DNA of 64,000 bases from Salarchaeum japonicum (lineage in GTDB: Archaea; Halobacteriota; Halobacteria; Halobacteriales; Halobacteriaceae). A program made the position numbers and the translations under genes. The stretch spans positions 2,051,564 through 2,115,563 of the forward strand of contig NZ_CP085324.1 in the NCBI RefSeq assembly GCF_020614395.1, given 5' to 3'. Under the pieces are notes generated by a model. That model worked only from the letters and a program-made list of their open reading frames with translations. It was not told the DNA's origin and searched no databases. Shown here one piece after another: positions 6,793-62,387 of this stretch. Position 1 is the stretch's first letter. Every line of letters begins with the position of its first letter.

Positions 6793-8025
6793 ATGGCCGA
6801 ATTCCGCACGCACGACGAACTCGTGGACGCGGTGGCGGACGCCGACTTCGACCGGCCGCCCGCCGTCGTCGCGAACGCACACATCACCGGACTCGGCGTG
6901 GCGCGCGCGCTCTCCGCCAACGACGTGCCCGTCATCGCCATCGACCGCGTCGGAGACGGGGCCGCGCCCACGTCCGACGCCGTGGACTTCGCTGGCCGCG
7001 TCACCTACCCATTGGACGACCTCGCCGGGTTCCGGGAGGACGTGGAAGCCATCGCGGACGCCGCCGGCCACGACCTCGTGGCGTTCGGCTGTATGGACGA
7101 GTGGGTGCACGCGTTCGCGGACGCAGACCCCGACGGCGTCCGCCTGCCGTTCGCCGCGGAGCGCGTGGACGCCGTGCTCGATAAGAGTTCGCTCTACCGC
7201 ATCGCGGACGACCTCGGCGTTCCCTACCCCGAAACCCGGTGGTTGGACGAGACGAGCGTCGCGGACGCCATCGACGACCTCGGCCTCCCGCTCGTGGTGA
7301 AGCCCGCGCTCAAGCGCGAGTTCGAGGAGGCCGTCGGGACGAACGTCGTCGAGGTCGCGACTGAGGAGGAGTTCCGGGACGTCGTGGAACTCGCTTCCGA
7401 GGAGGATATCGAGGTGCTCGCTCAGGAGAAGGTCGAGAAGGCGACGGGCGAGGACGCCAGCCTCGCGTCCTACGTCCCGCCGTCGGGCACGAGCGACGCG
7501 CTCGGCATCGTCGGGAACGCCCGAGTCCGAAAACCGCTCGGGTACGGCACGTCCTGCGTCGTGCAGCGCACGGAGAACGACGCGCTCCGCGAGCGGGCGC
7601 TCGGCGTGCTCGACGAGACGGACTACTACGGCATCAGCGAGAGCGAGTTCGTGTACGACGAGAACCGCGAGGAGTACGTCCTGCTCGACATCAACACCCG
7701 GCCGTGGAAGTGGATCGGACTCCCCGTCCAGGCCGGCGCGAACCTCCCGCTCGCCGCGTACGCGGACGCCACCGACACCACCTACGAACCCGGCGAACTC
7801 CACGACGCGACCTGGGTGTTCCTCCCGGACTACCTCGAACTCCTCGCCACCGACCAGTCCTTCGTGGACGTCCTCCAACCCAGCGACTGGACGAGCTTCC
7901 TCTCCGGCGACTTCACCGAGCGAGACGACCTCACCGCGGGCGTCTACCGGCCCGACGACCCCGACCCAGCCTACCAAATCCTCCGCAACACCCTCGGCAT
8001 GCAGGACTACTACTGCGCCTGCTAA
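6793..8025 (+). CDS. ATP-grasp domain protein, carboxylate-amine ligase type
   Basis: The 410-residue protein has a pre-ATP-grasp Rossmann region ('AVVANAHITGLGVARAL'). The ATP-grasp core carries 'PLVVKPALKREFEEA' near residue 170, 'VLAQEKVEKATGED' and the metal/ATP signature 'YVLLDINTRPWKWI' near residue 300. Family members join a carboxylate to an amine with ATP hydrolysis. The 'NTRPWKW' motif is typical of the haloarchaeal carboxylate-amine ligase group, whose substrate is not known. It is divergent from rpl10e and is followed directly by the first dispersed element. Confidence 0.8.
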   Translation: MAEFRTHDELVDAVADADFDRPPAVVANAHITGLGVARALSANDVPVIAIDRVGDGAAPTSDAVDFAGRVTYPLDDLAGFREDVEAIADAAGHDLVAFGCMDEWVHAFADADPDGVRLPFAAERVDAVLDKSSLYRIADDLGVPYPETRWLDETSVADAIDDLGLPLVVKPALKREFEEAVGTNVVEVATEEEFRDVVELASEEDIEVLAQEKVEKATGEDASLASYVPPSGTSDALGIVGNARVRKPLGYGTSCVVQRTENDALRERALGVLDETDYYGISESEFVYDENREEYVLLDINTRPWKWIGLPVQAGANLPLAAYADATDTTYEPGELHDATWVFLPDYLELLATDQSFVDVLQPSDWTSFLSGDFTERDDLTAGVYRPDDPDPAYQILRNTLGMQDYYCAC

Positions 8026-8041
8026 CCCACCTTTTTACTGT

Positions 8042-8066
8042 GAGGGGGTCGCAAGGCGACCCCCTC
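8042..8066 (+). terminator. Hairpin terminator after the 6793 gene
   Basis: An 11-bp perfect stem (GAGGGGGTCGC with its complement) and a 3-nt loop begin 17 nt after the stop codon, just past a TTTTT run. In Archaea the T-run itself is the usual termination signal, so both parts may contribute. Confidence 0.5.
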
Positions 8067-8188
8067 CAGCAAAAACCTGGAGGGAAAAGCCGGTCGCCGG
8101 AGGCGACCGGTGAATCGCGCCGCGCGCGGCGCGAATGCGTCCCCATTGCCACAACCGTGCCGCCACAGCGACCGCTCCACCGCCTCGC

Positions 8189-8203
8189 GCGAACGTTCAA
8201 ATA
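8189..8203 (+). promoter_or_regulatory. Promoter block of dispersed element A
   Basis: GCGAACGTTCAAATA reads as a BRE followed by the TATA-type box TTCAAATA. Transcription should begin near 8226-8228, at the start of the conserved stem-loop region. The same block is repeated in copies B and C. Confidence 0.5.
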
Positions 8204-8225
8204 GGAGGGCGCGGCCAGCGGTCGG

Positions 8226-8305
8226 TATGTCCTGACGAGTCGCCGCGCGGGGTCGGGTTCGGAGGCGGTGACGATCCCCGCGCGGTCGTAGTGTCACCCG
8301 AAAGC
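8226..8305 (+). ncRNA. Candidate structured small RNA, element A
   Basis: The predicted transcript starts about 26 nt after the TATA-like box with TGTCCTGA. A perfect 10-bp stem follows (8243-8252 with 8276-8285) closing a 23-nt loop. It then runs through TGTCACCCGAAAGCC. Copy B keeps the flanking boxes (TGTTCTGA and TGTCGCCCGAACGCC) while changing the stem sequence and preserving pairing. That pattern supports RNA structure. It matches no RNA family I know. Confidence 0.35.
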
Positions 8306-8400
8306 CATTCTTGCCGGTGTCGGTGACGAACGGGGGGAGACACCACGCAAACTCGCCGGTGTCCGTCGCTATTAGGCGGTCGCGGCCGTCCCGATACCTA

Positions 8401-9789: not shown

Positions 9790-11355
9790 ATGGAGCCGAC
9801 GAGCACCGACGAGGAGCACATCCACGTCGGGGAGACGGCGGACGGCACGCCCGTGGAGTTGCCGACCGTCGACATCCTCACGGGACGCGCGTTCCTCACG
9901 GGGAAGTCCGGGAGCGGGAAGTCGAACACGGCGAGCGTCGTCATCGAGGAACTGCTCGACGCGGGCTTTCCCGTCCTCATCGTGGACTGCGAGGGCGAGT
10001 ACTACGGGTTGAAGGAGGAGTTCGAGTTACTGCACGCGGGCGCTGACGAGGAGTGCGACATCCAGGTCGGTCCGGAGCACGCGGAGAAGCTCGCGAGCCT
10101 CGCGCTCGAACAGAACGTCCCCGTCATCCTCGACGTGTCGGGGTTCCTGGACGAGGACGCGTCGGACGAGCTGGTGCGGGAGACGGCGCGGCAGTTGTTC
10201 GTGAAGGAGAAGAAGCTGAAGAAGCCCTTTTTGCTGGTCGTGGAGGAAGTCCACGAGTACATCCCGGAAGGCGCGGGGATGGGCGAGACGGGGCGGATGC
10301 TCATCAAGGTCGGGAAGCGCGGGCGCAAGCACGGCCTGGGCGTGATGGGTATCAGTCAGCGGCCGGCGGACGTGAAGAAGGACTTCATCACGCAGGCGAA
10401 CTGGCTCGTCTGGCATCGGCTCACCTGGGAGAACGACACGAAGGTCGTCGGGCGCATCGTCGGCTCCGAGTACGGCGAGCAGGTGTCGGAACTGGACGCG
10501 GGCGAGGCGTTCGTGCAGGCGGACTGGACGGACGACGCGGTGTCCCGCATCCAGTTCAAGCGCAAGCGGACGTTCGACGCGGGCGCGACCCCGGGGCTCG
10601 ACGACTTCGAGCGCCCCGAATTGAAGTCGGTGAGCGAGGGGTTGATGGACGACCTGGCGTCGATTTCGGAGCGCGAGGAGCGCGAGGAAGACCGCATCGC
10701 GGAGCTGGAGGAGGAGCTCGCGGCGAAGCGCGAGCGCATCAACGAACTGGAGGAGGAACTCCGGTCGGCGCGGAACGTCTCGATGGCGGCGCGCCAGATG
10801 GCGAACGTCCTGACGGCCGAGGGCGTGCAGACGACGCTCCCCACGGACGCGGACGAGGACGTGGAGGCGTTGCGCGCGAAGGTCGAGCGGTTGGAGGACG
10901 CGCTCGACGAGGAGGAACCCGAGTCCTACGACATCGAGGAGATTCAGGAGAAGTTCAAGGAACGCGGGGAGGAACTCGCGGACGACCCCGATGCGGCGGC
11001 CGACGCCGACAGCGGGGGCGAGCAGTCGGCGCGCGTGGACGCGCTGTTGGAGTCGCCGTCGGTGCGGGTGCGGGTGGAGGCGGCGATACGGGAGTCGCAG
11101 TGCAACGAGGAGCGCGCGCGCCGACTGCTGGACGAACTCGACGGCGAGCGCACCGCGCACGACCTCTGCGAGGCCGCGTCCCTGCCCATCGGGGACGCGC
11201 AGAGCCTGCTGGACGCGCTGCGGAGTCGGCGGCTGGTGACGCGGAACGCGAACCGCGAGTACGCGTTCGACGGCGAAGAACTGCGGCGGTTGGCGCGCGG
11301 CGACGACCCGCGGGGCGCGGTGTCGGAACTGAGCGAGCAGTGGCGGTTCGACTAA
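9790..11355 (+). CDS. HerA-like (DUF87) ATP-binding protein with coiled coil
   Basis: The 521-residue P-loop ATPase has a short beta N terminus, Walker A 'GKSGSGKSNT' at residues 38-47, Walker B 'FLLVVEEVHEYIP' near 146-158 and an RP-containing 'GISQRPADVKKDF' arginine region. This matches HerA/FtsK-type translocases. Residues of about 295-385 are a long charged coiled coil, and the C terminus looks like one or two winged-helix folds. Unlike classical HerA it is not next to nurA, mre11 or rad50. It starts 36 nt after the monooxygenase and may be co-transcribed. A DNA-translocating role is inferred from the family only. Confidence 0.75.
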   Translation: MEPTSTDEEHIHVGETADGTPVELPTVDILTGRAFLTGKSGSGKSNTASVVIEELLDAGFPVLIVDCEGEYYGLKEEFELLHAGADEECDIQVGPEHAEKLASLALEQNVPVILDVSGFLDEDASDELVRETARQLFVKEKKLKKPFLLVVEEVHEYIPEGAGMGETGRMLIKVGKRGRKHGLGVMGISQRPADVKKDFITQANWLVWHRLTWENDTKVVGRIVGSEYGEQVSELDAGEAFVQADWTDDAVSRIQFKRKRTFDAGATPGLDDFERPELKSVSEGLMDDLASISEREEREEDRIAELEEELAAKRERINELEEELRSARNVSMAARQMANVLTAEGVQTTLPTDADEDVEALRAKVERLEDALDEEEPESYDIEEIQEKFKERGEELADDPDAAADADSGGEQSARVDALLESPSVRVRVEAAIRESQCNEERARRLLDELDGERTAHDLCEAASLPIGDAQSLLDALRSRRLVTRNANREYAFDGEELRRLARGDDPRGAVSELSEQWRFD

Positions 11356-28810: not shown

Positions 28811-30130
28811 ATGTCACGAGAAGACACAGCGATAGTAGCGAAGCGCGTAGACGAGTCTCCGGCGGACACCGGAGAGATCAGGGCGCTCGCGCGGTCGGCG
28901 GGCTACGCCGTCGCCGGCGAGGTCGTCCAGCAGCGCGCCCCGCATCCCGGTCACGAGTTCGGGACGGGCGCGATTGCGGAGCTGCGGCGCGACGTCCGGG
29001 CGGCCGACGCGGACGCCGTCGTGGTTGACAACGACCTCGACGCGAACCGGGCGTTCGCGCTCGCCGACCGCCTCCCCGCCGACACGGGCGTCCGCGACCG
29101 GAAGCGCCTCGTCATCGACATCTTCGGCGAGCGCGCGGAGACCCGGCGCGCCCAACTGGAGGTGCGGCTGGCCGAACTAGAGTACGAACTCCCGCGGGCC
29201 GAGGAGCGCGCGAAGCGCGGCGAGGACGTGGGACGCCGGGGGTTCAAGAGCTCCGGCGAGTCCCCGGCCTCGCAGGTTCGCGCGGCGTACAAGCGCGAAA
29301 TCAAGCAGGTCGAGGACGCGCTCGCGGACATCGAGACCGCGGACGCGACGCGGCGCGCAGACCGGCACGCGGCGGGGTTCGACCTGGTCGCGCTCGCCGG
29401 GTACACGAACGCCGGGAAGTCCACGCTCCTGCGGCGGCTCGCGGACGACCACGCGGTCGGGGAGAACGACCGCCGGCACGCCGACCTCGCGGAGGTCGCG
29501 GCGTCCCACGACGGCCTGTTCACGACGCTGAACACGACGACGCGCCGGGCGACCGTCGGCGACCACCGGTTGCTGGTGACGGACACGGTCGGGTTCGTCT
29601 CCGGGCTCCCGCACTGGCTCGTGGATTCCTTCGAGTCGACGCTCGCGTCCGCGTACCGTGCGGACGCGGTGCTGTTGGTCGCGGACGCCACCGACCCGCC
29701 GGCGCGCCTCCGTGAGAAGGTGGCGACGAGCCGGGACGTGCTCGCCGACCACCGGGACGCGGACGACGGCGTCGTCCCCGTTCTGAACAAGGTCGACGCG
29801 GCAGACCGGCTCGACGAGAAGCGGCGGGTCGTCCGCGAGGTCGTCGGCGACCCCGTGTGCGTGAGCGCGCTTGACGGTGACGGACTGGAGGCGCTCGGCG
29901 ACCGTTTGGCCGCGGCGCTCCCGGAGCGCGAGACGGCGCGGTTCTCGCTCCCGCAGTCGGACGACGCGATGTCGTTCGTCTCCTGGCTCTACGACCACGC
30001 GAACGCGGTCGAGGTCACGCACGGCGAGACGGTGGAAATCGAAGTCTCGGGGCGACCCGAGGTCGTGGCGCTCGCTCGCGGCCGCGCGAGTGACGCTGGG
30101 GCTGACACGGCGGCGCGTCGAGATTCGTAG
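28811..30130 (+). CDS. hflX: GTPase HflX
   Basis: The 439-residue ribosome-associated GTPase has an N-terminal HflX domain including the glycine-rich 'RRGFKSSGESPASQVRAAYKRE' region (about residues 140-160) and a helical linker. The G domain has P-loop 'GYTNAGKSTLL' near residue 197, 'TTTRRATV' switch region, 'DTVGFVSGLPHWLV' and 'NKVDA'. HflX splits or rescues stalled ribosomes in bacteria. The 170 bp before it contain nothing else I can identify. Its 3' end overlaps the antisense 3' part of dispersed element C. Confidence 0.93.
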   Translation: MSREDTAIVAKRVDESPADTGEIRALARSAGYAVAGEVVQQRAPHPGHEFGTGAIAELRRDVRAADADAVVVDNDLDANRAFALADRLPADTGVRDRKRLVIDIFGERAETRRAQLEVRLAELEYELPRAEERAKRGEDVGRRGFKSSGESPASQVRAAYKREIKQVEDALADIETADATRRADRHAAGFDLVALAGYTNAGKSTLLRRLADDHAVGENDRRHADLAEVAASHDGLFTTLNTTTRRATVGDHRLLVTDTVGFVSGLPHWLVDSFESTLASAYRADAVLLVADATDPPARLREKVATSRDVLADHRDADDGVVPVLNKVDAADRLDEKRRVVREVVGDPVCVSALDGDGLEALGDRLAAALPERETARFSLPQSDDAMSFVSWLYDHANAVEVTHGETVEIEVSGRPEVVALARGRASDAGADTAARRDS

Positions 30131-30184
30131 CGGGCGCGCCGCCGGGTTTCGCGCTCCACGCTACGGCTCGTCTCAGAGCACGCC
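30102..30184 (-). ncRNA. Candidate structured small RNA, element C
   Basis: The predicted minus-strand transcript starts about 26 nt after the TATTTGAA (TTCAAATA) box at 30205-30212. It contains TGCTCTGA and a stem GTAGCG/CGCTAC with an inner GC-rich stem, then TGTCAGCCCC. The last third is antisense to the hflX 3' end. The match to copies A and B is weaker beyond the promoter block. Confidence 0.25.
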
Positions 30185-30204
30185 GCCCGCTGGCCGCCCG
30201 TTCG

Positions 30205-30221
30205 TATTTGAAGGTTCGCGC
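30205..30221 (-). promoter_or_regulatory. Promoter block of dispersed element C
   Basis: On the minus strand GCGCGAACCTTCAAATA matches copy A at all but one base and has the same spacing to GGCCAGCG. Confidence 0.45.
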
Positions 30222-30314
30222 GGTCGCGAGGACGGGTCGCGCATTCGCGCCGCTCGGCGGCGCGATTCACCGGTCGCCTTCGGCGACCGGCGTTTTTCCC
30301 TCCAAAAAGGTGGG

Positions 30315-41789: not shown

Positions 41790-41944
41790 CCCACCTTTTT
41801 CTTCGTCGGGTTCGCCGAAGGCGAACCACTCCTCGAAAAATCTGGACCAAAAACTCTCGCTCGCTCCGCGAGCGAGTAGGCTGCGAACGCGTTACCGCAC
41901 TGCTTCAACACCGCACCCGAACCAGTTCCGAACCGCGACCAGGT

Positions 41945-41957
41945 GAACGTTCAAGTA
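41945..41957 (+). promoter_or_regulatory. Promoter block of dispersed element B
   Basis: GAACGTTCAAGTA corresponds to copy A with one change in the TATA box (TTCAAGTA). Predicted transcription start is near 41979-41981. Confidence 0.45.
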
Positions 41958-41978
41958 GGAGAGCGCGGCCAGCGCGCG

Positions 41979-42056
41979 GTATGTTCTGAGTGGTGGCGCA
42001 CGGGAGCGGATTCGGTGAGCGGCGACGAATCCCGTGCGCGCGGTGTGTCGCCCGAA
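41979..42056 (+). ncRNA. Candidate structured small RNA, element B
   Basis: The predicted transcript opens with ATGTTCTGA. It forms a perfect 10-bp stem at 41996-42005/42030-42039, with an alternative inner GGATTCG/CGAATCC pairing. It closes with TGTCGCCCGAACGCC. Stem bases differ from copy A while complementarity is kept, which suggests selection for RNA folding. Confidence 0.35.
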
Positions 42057-42060
42057 CGCC

Positions 42061-42984
42061 CTATGCGACGCGGTTGACGAACTCCTCGTCCGCGTTCGCG
42101 TGGAGGACGTTCTGTCGGACGAGGTCGGCGATGTGCTCGTAGTAGTCGCGCTCGGCGGCGGCGGCGTGCGGCGTGACGAGCACGTCCTCGTAGTCCCAGA
42201 GCGGCGAGTCCGAGTCGAGGGGTTCGTCCTCGAACACGTCCAGCGCCGCGCCCGCGAGTTCCCCGGCGTCGAGCGCGTCCACGAGCGCGTCCTCCTGTAC
42301 GACCTCGCCGCGCGCGACGTTCACGAGGTAGGCGTCGTCGCGCATCGCGGCGAACTCGTCGGGCCCGAACAGGCCCTCGGTGTCGTCGGTGAGCGGACAC
42401 GCGAGCGCGACGAACCGCGCGTCCGCGATGGCGTCGTGGAGGTCTTGCGGGCCGTACACCGCCCGCGTGTGCGGCGTCTTCACGGGCGTGCGGCGGACGC
42501 CGGTGACGCGCATCCCGACGCCGTCGGCGCGCCGCGCGATACCCTGGCCGAGCGCGCCGAGTCCGACGACGGTGAGGCGTTCGTCGAACAGCGTGAACGG
42601 CTCGTCCCAGTCGGGTCGAGTCCACTCCCGTTCGTGCTGGGCGTCCCGGAACGTGTGGAGGCGGCGCGCGAGCGCGAGCATCTGCCCGACCGCGTACTCG
42701 CCGACGGACGCGCCGTGAATCCCGGAGCTGTTCGTGAACGCGACGCCGGCGTCCGCGAAGTCGTCCAGCGGAAAGCGGTCGTAGCCGGCCTGAATCGAGT
42801 GCACCCACTCGACGCTGTCGAGGAAGGCGTCGCGGTGGAGGAACGTCACGACCGCGTCCACGCTATCGAGGTCGTCGCCGACGATGGACACGTCGGGGTC
42901 GACGGATTCGAGCGCGTCCCGCAGGCGTTCCGGCGGGAAGACGATGGAGACGGAGTCGTGGATACCGAGGTGGTCGATGTTCAT
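42061..42984 (-). CDS. ddh: D-2-hydroxyacid dehydrogenase
   Basis: The 307-residue NAD(P)-dependent enzyme interconverts 2-keto acids and D-2-hydroxyacids. Nucleotide-binding motif 'VVGLGALGQGIARRADGVG' is central. The catalytic set is Arg in 'VNVARGEVV', Glu in 'DVFEDEPL' and His in 'VTPHAAA'. The start at 42984 was chosen over an upstream in-frame codon because family sequence begins 'MNIDHLGIHDSV'. Substrate range is not predictable. Confidence 0.88.
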   Translation of the reverse strand: MNIDHLGIHDSVSIVFPPERLRDALESVDPDVSIVGDDLDSVDAVVTFLHRDAFLDSVEWVHSIQAGYDRFPLDDFADAGVAFTNSSGIHGASVGEYAVGQMLALARRLHTFRDAQHEREWTRPDWDEPFTLFDERLTVVGLGALGQGIARRADGVGMRVTGVRRTPVKTPHTRAVYGPQDLHDAIADARFVALACPLTDDTEGLFGPDEFAAMRDDAYLVNVARGEVVQEDALVDALDAGELAGAALDVFEDEPLDSDSPLWDYEDVLVTPHAAAAERDYYEHIADLVRQNVLHANADEEFVNRVA

Positions 42985-50658: not shown

Positions 50659-50674
50659 CGACCTTTTGCTCTGC

Positions 50675-50693
50675 GTGCGCCCTTCGGGCGCAC
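50675..50693 (+). terminator. Hairpin after the SUI1 gene
   Basis: A perfect 8-bp stem GTGCGCCC/GGGCGCAC with loop TTC lies 17 nt after the stop, following a CCTTTT run. It is probably the 3' end of the SUI1 mRNA. Confidence 0.5.
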
Positions 50694-50754
50694 TCGGCAA
50701 AAGCTCGGGCAAAAGCACTCCTCCTTCGGTTCGTTCCGTCCCTCAGTCGTCGGC

Positions 50755-62140: not shown

Positions 62141-62387
62141 CGAACAGAATAGCGGGCTCGACGGGAGTCACGCGAGCGAACAAAGTGAGCGAGTGTGACT
62201 AAGCGAGACGCCTCCGGCGTCTCGCGGAGTCGCCCCGTTTTTCGGCGAACTTCGTTCGCCGTAAAAACGGGCTCGACGGGATTTGAACTAACGCGAGACT
62301 CGCTTCGCTCGCCTCGCTGAGTTCAGAATCCCACTCGCTGCGCTATTCGTTCTCGCTTCACTCGAACAGAATAGCGGGCTCGACGGG
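62141..62387. repeat. tRNA-3'-end direct repeats and hairpins at the element border
   Basis: The gene-free stretch 62032-62429 contains two identical 25-bp repeats, at 62141-62165 and 62363-62387. A third, partial copy lies at 62268-62288. All carry GGGCTCGACGGG, the complement of a tRNA acceptor 3' end, and the middle copy continues into a T-loop-like ATTTGAACT. Between them are perfect hairpins at 62203-62225 and 62234-62271 and an AGTCAC/GTGACT pair. This is the expected look of an attachment-site border next to an integrase. Confidence 0.65.

Follow-up and report, generated by a model that had tools for sequence, protein, structure and literature searches.

What is it that recurs behind unrelated genes of a haloarchaeal chromosome, beginning right at the stop codon with one and the same T-rich sequence, and is it a unit that spreads among gene ends? 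The window considered here, i.e. the whole stretch of 64,000 nucleotides that was analysed (G000:C1:2051564-2115563), is part of a chromosome in a genome of 2.34 Mb (G000), taken to be haloarchaeal from its kinship to named records and its composition, and carries three such elements, termed A (8026, plus strand), B (41790, plus strand) and C (30314, minus strand). They share the 11-mer CCCACCTTTTT, which is present in three exact copies (8026-8036 and 41790-41800 on the plus strand, 30314-30304 on the minus strand); tolerance of up to one mismatch returned only the same three sites, compared to an expectation of 0.16, and none of 100 shuffles contained three. Each of these sites is directly preceded by TAA or TAG. 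The upstream genes encode an ATP-grasp-like protein (A; weak CPSase_L_D2 match of 24.4 bits), a GTPase compatible with engB (B; MMR_HSR1) and an archaemetzincin that fits amzA (C; Peptidase_M54), so that the gene names given in the initial annotation (ATP-grasp, engB, amzA) are compatible with the domain matches.

Throughout the genome, 14 exact copies of the 11-mer stand against two of a reversed control pattern. Eight of them follow TAA or TAG directly and one more follows by 3 nt (by eye); the other five are not behind an upstream stop, with opposite-strand gene ends seen by eye at L003, L004 and L005. The position right after a stop codon, which the initial annotation had described as invariable, is thus found at all three window sites but not genome-wide. 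The 11-mer is also strongly over-represented in some distant haloarchaea, namely G102, G038 and several genomes of genus g12 (24 versus 1, 17 versus 0 and, e.g. in G105, 10 versus 0 occurrences relative to reversed controls), but not in most of the 195 sampled genomes.

A BLASTN search with 8026-8330 against the own genome yielded 28 matches including the query itself, which fall into two separate blocks rather than one unit. The second block (approximately 8190-8310) recurs at 13 places, namely at A, B and C plus ten others, whether or not the first block is present. Each window element consists of two separate modules, the second of which starts 96 (C), 154 (B) or 164 nt (A) behind the stop codon (Table 1); among the exact module 1 sites, six of 14 are followed by module 2, and seven of the first 13 module 2 copies have module 1 in front. 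The long common 3' flank claimed for unrelated genes is therefore real and even longer than described, though its second part is a module of its own. Likewise, hairpins II and III of A and C agree almost base for base, as had been stated, over 39 nt at 95% identity.

Table 1. Position of module 1 and module 2 features in the window
Feature	Element	Position	Strand	Remarks
Module 1: CCCACC-T5-hairpin I-A5-CCTGGAGGG	A	8026-8084	+	behind ATP-grasp-like gene, stop TAA 8023-8025
Hairpins II (8090-8110) and III (8115-8134)	A	8090-8134	+	common with C, 39 nt, 95%
Module 2: promoter, BRE/TATA-like CGAACGTTCAAATA and GCGCGGCCAGCG element	A	8190-8223	+	
Module 2: RNA body, tail CGAAAGCC	A	8224-8308	+	R2 59.5 bits (copy in model)
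Two-codon frame ATG-TCC-TGA	A	8227-8235	+	predicted leaderless 5' end
Stems: P1 8242-8252/8276-8286; pseudoknot helix 8267-8273/8292-8298	A		+	
Module 1: short form CCCACCTTTTTGGAGGG without hairpin I	C	30298-30314	-	behind amzA
Module 2: promoter and RNA body (30184-30098)	C	30098-30218	-	R2 63.1 bits (copy in model)
Two-codon frame GTG-CTC-TGA	C	30181-30173	-	
Module 1: CCCACC-T5-hairpin-A5-TCTGGACC	B	41790-41848	+	behind engB
Module 2: promoter and RNA body (41978-42062)	B	41944-42062	+	R2 61.8 bits (copy in model)
Two-codon frame ATG-TTC-TGA	B	41981-41989	+	

Module 1 would most likely act as a haloarchaeal transcription terminator of the upstream gene. Its T5 tract lies six bases past the stop codon in all three window copies, and T5 tracts at gene ends are an established termination signal of haloarchaea, with a T5C tract terminating 95% of transcripts in a Haloferax reporter test (PMC7237163). 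In addition, its folds exceed those of shuffled sequences (z = -6.1 for A, -5.4 for B and -3.4 for C), the predicted fold of A (8026-8120) amounting to -56.7 kcal/mol. The earlier suggestion that the elements perhaps supply a terminator is supported by both the known signal and the folds. In A and B, the T5-hairpin-A5 arrangement provides a T5 tract on both strands, and in C the T5 occurs only within the short hairpin; since T5 lies on both strands whenever the A5 tract is present, module 1 is read as potentially bidirectional in these cases. T-hairpin-A arrangements are found at four places in the window; 20 mononucleotide shuffles contained 0.05 on average. Among the places outside the three elements, 62238-62267 holds another T5-hairpin-A5 stretch, which differs in its flank, and 50664-50702 another T-hairpin-A terminator type behind a stop (TAA CGACC TTTT ... 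AAAA).

Comparison with a sister species, represented by one genome (G049), reveals how module 1 changes. The T tract is in place there at A, B, C, L010, L011 and L018, and is also kept at seven of eight further loci, the remaining one (L007) being not alignable. The surrounding sequence is less constant: the 11-mer is kept at B, C, L011 and L005, the same module 1 type at one of the eight further loci (L005), and at A as well as L018 the flank CCCACC with CCTGGAGGG is replaced by CGGACT with CCTCCACT. Moreover, the GGAGG type occurs ten times in G000 and three times in G049, the CCACT type two and six times, respectively, and reversed controls not at all. A given module 1 type is thus common among loci of one genome and often unlike the orthologous locus in the sister genome, a pattern that looks like concerted change among terminators rather than insertion. 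Module 1 alone is ordinary and constitutes nothing new.

The question of mobility has to be posed for module 2 as well. The same three genes carry both modules in the sister species (92-94% identity over approximately 3 kb), and a positional counterpart of module 2 was found for 19 of the 22 own copies. This number comprises 15 initial counterparts, including L001 and L022, which matched on part of the flank only, and four of five examined later, for which the flank interval is kept and contains a model match; it leaves out L078, L077, a doubtful 16th counterpart with 67% identity, and L074, an uncertain case with an interval longer by 1.4 kb. A further genus has RNA copies downstream of ATP-grasp gene homologues (L051, L069 and L045, where 2, 6 and 563 nt separate the stop from the TATA box) and of engB homologues (L054, L046, L107 and L108, with 20, 32, 190 and 300 nt), the protein homologues being 63-71% identical; a counterpart of C was not encountered among the loci compared in that genus. 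This genus is probably Halobacterium, because the RNA of L051 equals that of L152, a Halobacterium locus, by eye. At L051 and L069, the RNA promoter is located 2-6 nt past the ATP-grasp stop codon, which leaves no module 1 in between.

An insertion of modules 1 and 2 as a mobile unit at gene ends might account for near-identical module 1 sequences at unrelated genes of one genome, few of the type being present in the sister. Yet for most copies compared the sister carries an element at the same gene end, A and B reside near the same genes in another genus, the comparison with G049 revealed no clean empty site and no target duplication, and copy A returned no blastn match in plasmid and phage collections. 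Because most copies stay in position within the genus and counterparts of two window copies exist in another genus, mobility is not supported; a mobile unit is very unlikely as an explanation of the whole and largely refuted for module 2. On the contrary, the comparison of positions shows most of the module 2 loci compared to be vertically inherited. The same flank at the same genes in relatives, named in the initial annotation as the observation that would speak against dispersal, was largely encountered, by way of the sister genome and of the other genus for A and B. Duplication or mobility at gene ends is accordingly not borne out, and the proposed alignment of orthologous loci exposed occupied sites in G049 in place of insertion ends; what persists of dispersal is the sharing of module 1 sequence types among loci within one genome.

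Module 2 looks like a predicted small RNA gene of approximately 85 nt with its own promoter, belonging to an undescribed family. Two models were used to trace it, i.e. R1, which is sequence-only, trained on own-genome copies and contains promoter and frame, and R2, which covers the RNA body only, with helix P1 as its sole stem, and is free of the promoter but contains the frame columns. R1 matched 24 of 26 genomes of the family, with 1-35 matches each; at the level of the order, 70 of 116 genomes were matched. These counts take in a small number of protein genes that share the promoter. R2 matched 22 of the 26 family genomes, with 3-29 matches each. Of 196 phylum genomes it matched 16, each of which belongs to the window's own order, and the other 180, of which 20 were itemised, had no match; as to copies per genome, either model may over- or undercount. 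Three genomes of the same family that are 99% complete (G012 and G039 of genus g2, and G064) lack a match to the RNA body and appear to have lost it, G064 retaining one weak R1 match; such losses could help to trace what the RNA does.

Comparison with Rfam 15 gave no family that would make module 2 a ribozyme, riboswitch or sRNA of known type. At gathering thresholds, only two tRNAs were detected in the window; the interval 8000-8400 gave eight matches at E <=10, none above 17 bits, and five strong module 2 copies gave none at E <=1. The titles and abstract openings of the open-access papers returned by literature searches described neither a module 2 family nor the shared promoter; individual copies may already have been recorded as sRNAs in haloarchaeal transcriptome studies.

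The copies of module 2 are headed by a BRE/TATA-like sequence resembling CGAACGTTCAARTA and by a GnGRCCA element. In 20 hand-picked matches of the promoter-free model R2, of which 17 stem from other families and three from this family or checked genomes thereof, RCCA is present at -16 to -7 in 15 (background 4.8%) and a TATA-like stretch in 18. The TATA box is separated from the start codon by 31 nt in 103 of 114 copies. A distance of about 31 nt from TATA to start is the geometry of a leaderless archaeal start, and we infer that transcription of module 2 begins at or just before the RTG and yields a leaderless RNA; leaderless translation is widespread in haloarchaea (PMC8241225). A sigma-70 style promoter scan was uninformative, as that model is not applicable to archaea.

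The same promoter is also used by protein genes. A pattern that ends at the RTG and is free beyond it was scanned against one genome per species (84,980 species) and gave 75 matches, 73 of them haloarchaeal. Of the latter, 28 open a frame of exactly two codons and none a frame of one or of three to eight; the others comprise one frame of nine and one of 55 codons, one cut by a contig end, and 42 of at least 122 codons. The 42 long matches are read as leaderless protein genes with the RTG start at the same promoter position. Ten representatives matched DUF7382, Pilin_N, a TadA-like secretion ATPase (T2SSE), DUF7283, DUF7310 (coiled coil), MinD/ParA-like (CbiA), HerA-like (DUF87), TctA and NucS_N; the last is accompanied by a zinc ribbon that, like the Cas4-like assignment of a further representative, scored below the curated cut-off. 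Within G000, the module 2 promoter precedes two leaderless protein genes, at L032 (G000:C1:2050893, approximately 0.6 kb before the window) and at L027, which by eye encode a DUF7382-like pilin and a TctA-like transporter. A HerA/DUF87-type ATPase gene is located at 9790-11355 of the window, two genes past element A. A survey of archaeal type IV pili (PMC4858521) reported MinD-like ATPases as well as a coiled-coil protein found only in a halobacterial system, and named TFB homologues as the regulators most often predicted in pilus loci. It is a guess that a dedicated TFB paralogue reads the shared promoter; a TFB gene beside the shared-promoter genes was seen at one of the 75 loci (L184, by motif).

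Immediately behind the promoter, module 2 contains a frame of a start, one sense codon and a stop, i.e. the layout of a minigene. Among 99 copies found by R1 or BLAST, for which no stop was demanded, 90 possess the stems described below at a loose cut-off, and all 90 carry a stop, at codon 3 (88) or codon 2 (2); the 88 follow RTG in 83 cases and ATC in five. In six more copies the frame is present but the fold scores lower, and L032, L027 and L062 have neither frame nor stems, two of these three being protein genes by sequence. In total, the RTG frame with a codon-3 stop occurs in 89 of the 99, including the 83 with stems. A set of 114 copies (93 non-redundant), in which frame and stems were required, starts with GTG (87), ATG (22) or ATC (5); ATG is the usual strong leaderless start, and despite this GTG is the commonest start of module 2. 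Codon 3 of these copies is TGA (92), TAA (14), TAG (6) or CGA (2) and never TGG, even though the last place is G in six of the 20 copies with a middle A (Fisher 1.6e-5 for the 114 copies and 1.3e-4 for the 93 non-redundant ones). Both CGA copies (L039 and its ortholog L086) bear TAG one codon earlier, at codon 2, so that the stop has shifted by one codon and is nonetheless retained. The spacer from the stop to P1 measures 6-7 nt in 91 and 5-8 nt in 107 of the 114 copies. Because of this bias towards a codon-3 stop and the near-fixed spacer, the stop codon and its distance to the fold are taken to be under selection. Since codon 2 is not conserved, the encoded dipeptide itself is unlikely to matter. 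Base pairing of codon 2 with the spacer was rejected as the cause of the frame, the largest nearby pairing excess being 0.11-0.16. Viral contigs gave no match to the promoter pattern with TRA at codon 3.

Pseudoknots that stimulate readthrough or frameshifting are of the H-type and lie 5-9 nt behind the decoding site, and the spacer of 5-8 nt in front of an H-type fold resembles such known recoding sites. A longer product made by recoding gains slight further support from the reading frames beyond the stop: of 89 copies, 34 remain free of stops for 100 codons or more in frame 0, versus 25 (+1), 22 (+2) and 11 in shuffles. Nevertheless, 25 of the 89 frame-0 readings end within 30 codons, much as in frames +1 and +2 (24 and 27); GC-rich DNA often has long open stretches in every frame, and no common product is apparent. 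Readthrough was rejected since none of the frames past the stop is common to all copies in the 89 readings, and recoding in general is considered extremely unlikely.

The body behind the frame is an RNA fold. For the first 13 copies, the same H-type pseudoknot can be drawn at near-constant positions with different stem sequences, the stems having been chosen by hand (with P1 limited to 5 bp in L033). Scored geometrically for crossing stems, 81 of the 99 copies found by R1 or BLAST reach at least 39, as do 1.3% of shuffles; at the looser cut of at least 30, the values are 90 of 99 and 14.3%, and seven of 45 pattern matches lacking the frame also attain it. In an alignment of 24 members picked for similar geometry (A2), 91% of the cells pair, with a covariation of 0.524 versus 0.187 +- 0.018. 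A larger alignment (A3) of 97 R2 matches from 99 sources includes the A2 members and was built on a model from which the pseudoknot helix is absent. Here, P1 and the pseudoknot helix are paired in 90.4% of cells, compared to 66.2% when shuffled and 33-52% when slid, and covariation amounts to 0.619 versus 0.181 +- 0.009 (shuffled) and 0.05-0.13 (slid, maximum 0.132), values obtained from rows that are related sequences and thus not independent events. Changes on both sides occur in all 18 pairs, a count that discriminates poorly (shuffles average 15.8, and seven of 500 reach 18), and two outer pairs are weak, with failures in 36 (20-68) and 55 (48-94) of 96 rows. The comparison of these sequences thereby shows the module 2 body to be a covarying H-type pseudoknot.

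Covarying stems could in principle act as DNA, e.g. as protein binding sites, instead of RNA. Against this, 15 (RCCA) to 18 (TATA-like) of the 20 promoter-free matches have a promoter element on one and the same side, crossing stems cannot both form cruciforms by reasoning, and the predicted strand of A3 contains more G-U than A-C pairs (81 versus 29); a role as DNA is hardly credible.

A further explanation holds that the frame is a mere fence, i.e. that a leaderless RNA on a shared promoter needs an immediate stop to protect the fold, with translation having no regulatory part. This agrees with the protein genes that start at the same RTG of the same promoter, as well as with the free codon 2. 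Loss of the start codon would be a simpler solution, however; of the 114 copies, for which the frame was required, 109 retain RTG and none has GTC, and the pseudoknot stands at a near-fixed distance from the stop, so that the fence is deemed rather unlikely, albeit worth consideration.

The surroundings of the 22 own copies bear on whether module 2 acts on its neighbours. The upstream gene has the same direction as module 2 in 16 of the 22, and the downstream gene has the same direction in 11, is convergent in ten and was not called in one. These calls are based on ORFs and codon usage, with an overlapping ORF set aside in L001, L011, L074 and L078; the gene next to L011 was seen by eye to be of the same direction and not convergent. 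Most copies are less than 100 nt away from the next called gene, and in nine of the ten convergent cases the RNA tail lies -33 to +15 from the end of the convergent gene. Examples in which the tail reaches or enters that end are B (42053) and L018. Different genes follow the copies, and a constant downstream gene of the same direction, as expected of a riboswitch or cis leader, is not seen among the 22.

Module 2 as a cis-acting leader, riboswitch or antisense element for the neighbouring gene would fit these short distances and the ten of 22 copies that face a convergent gene, nine of them overlapping the end of that gene or no more than 33 nt away from it. It would not fit the unrelated neighbours in both orientations (11 of 22 same, ten opposite, one not called), and appears improbable to us. 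Since no single neighbour or orientation is required, action in trans is favoured.

Taken together, we regard it as reasonably probable that the elements combine a terminator (module 1) with an independent gene for a leaderless minigene/pseudoknot RNA (module 2) that acts in trans. Module 1 would terminate the upstream gene, and behind it module 2 would be transcribed independently from its TATA-type promoter, starting at or just before the RTG and giving a leaderless RNA. A 70S ribosome would then bind the 5' end, read one codon and meet the stop, where its leading edge would abut helix P1; ribosomes would thereby be kept from running through the fold, and the 5' end would probably be shielded from nucleases. 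A protective role is plausible because translation of a bacterial two-codon minigene, mg2 of axe-txe (ATG ACT TAA), raises expression of the gene behind it in cis, possibly by mRNA protection (PMC8708949). The intact pseudoknot would act in trans, most likely by binding a common partner, and in concert with the genes for pili, secretion and DNA processing on the same promoter. Two features of the starts count against this reading, namely ATC in place of RTG in five of the 114 copies and the prevalence of GTG over ATG.

A bolder version would make module 2 a ribosome-gated RNA class, in which the minigene reports 70S start and termination and a ribosome at P1 switches the pseudoknot between free and bound states, coupling the translation status to a regulon for pilus and DNA processing, perhaps DNA exchange, with up to approximately 30 copies; we consider this version unlikely.

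What is new in module 2 is a multicopy, mostly vertically inherited, structured RNA family of haloarchaea that has no match in Rfam 15. The promoter element of interest lies between the TATA box and the start and is shared with genes of pili and DNA processing. Since laboratory strains of haloarchaea are genetically tractable, the leaderless minigenes, the promoter element and the genes on the same promoter are directly accessible to testing. To our knowledge, the combination of a start-codon-stop frame at near-fixed distance from a pseudoknot is known in no RNA family.

Several known systems nevertheless share parts of the arrangement. With readthrough and frameshift pseudoknots, module 2 has in common the H-type fold near a decoding site, but it differs in lacking a common frame past the stop. 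Haloarchaeal intergenic sRNAs, e.g. sRNA132, are of the same intergenic small RNA gene type, whereas the opening of the abstract reporting it mentions no multicopy structured family with a two-codon frame (PMC6560208). The intergenic T5C terminators of Haloferax volcanii equal module 1 in the T stretch at the gene end, and hairpins can contribute there as well (PMC7237163); module 1 differs from them in that T5 stands on both strands around the hairpin in A and B, and in that the flank CCCACC and, for A, CCTGGAGGG are common between loci. Two-codon minigenes such as mg2 of axe-txe exhibit the same sequence of start, one codon and stop as module 2. In contrast to mg2, which is bacterial, led by a Shine-Dalgarno sequence and located before a gene (PMC8708949), module 2 is predicted to be leaderless, has no constant downstream gene and bears a pseudoknot behind its frame.
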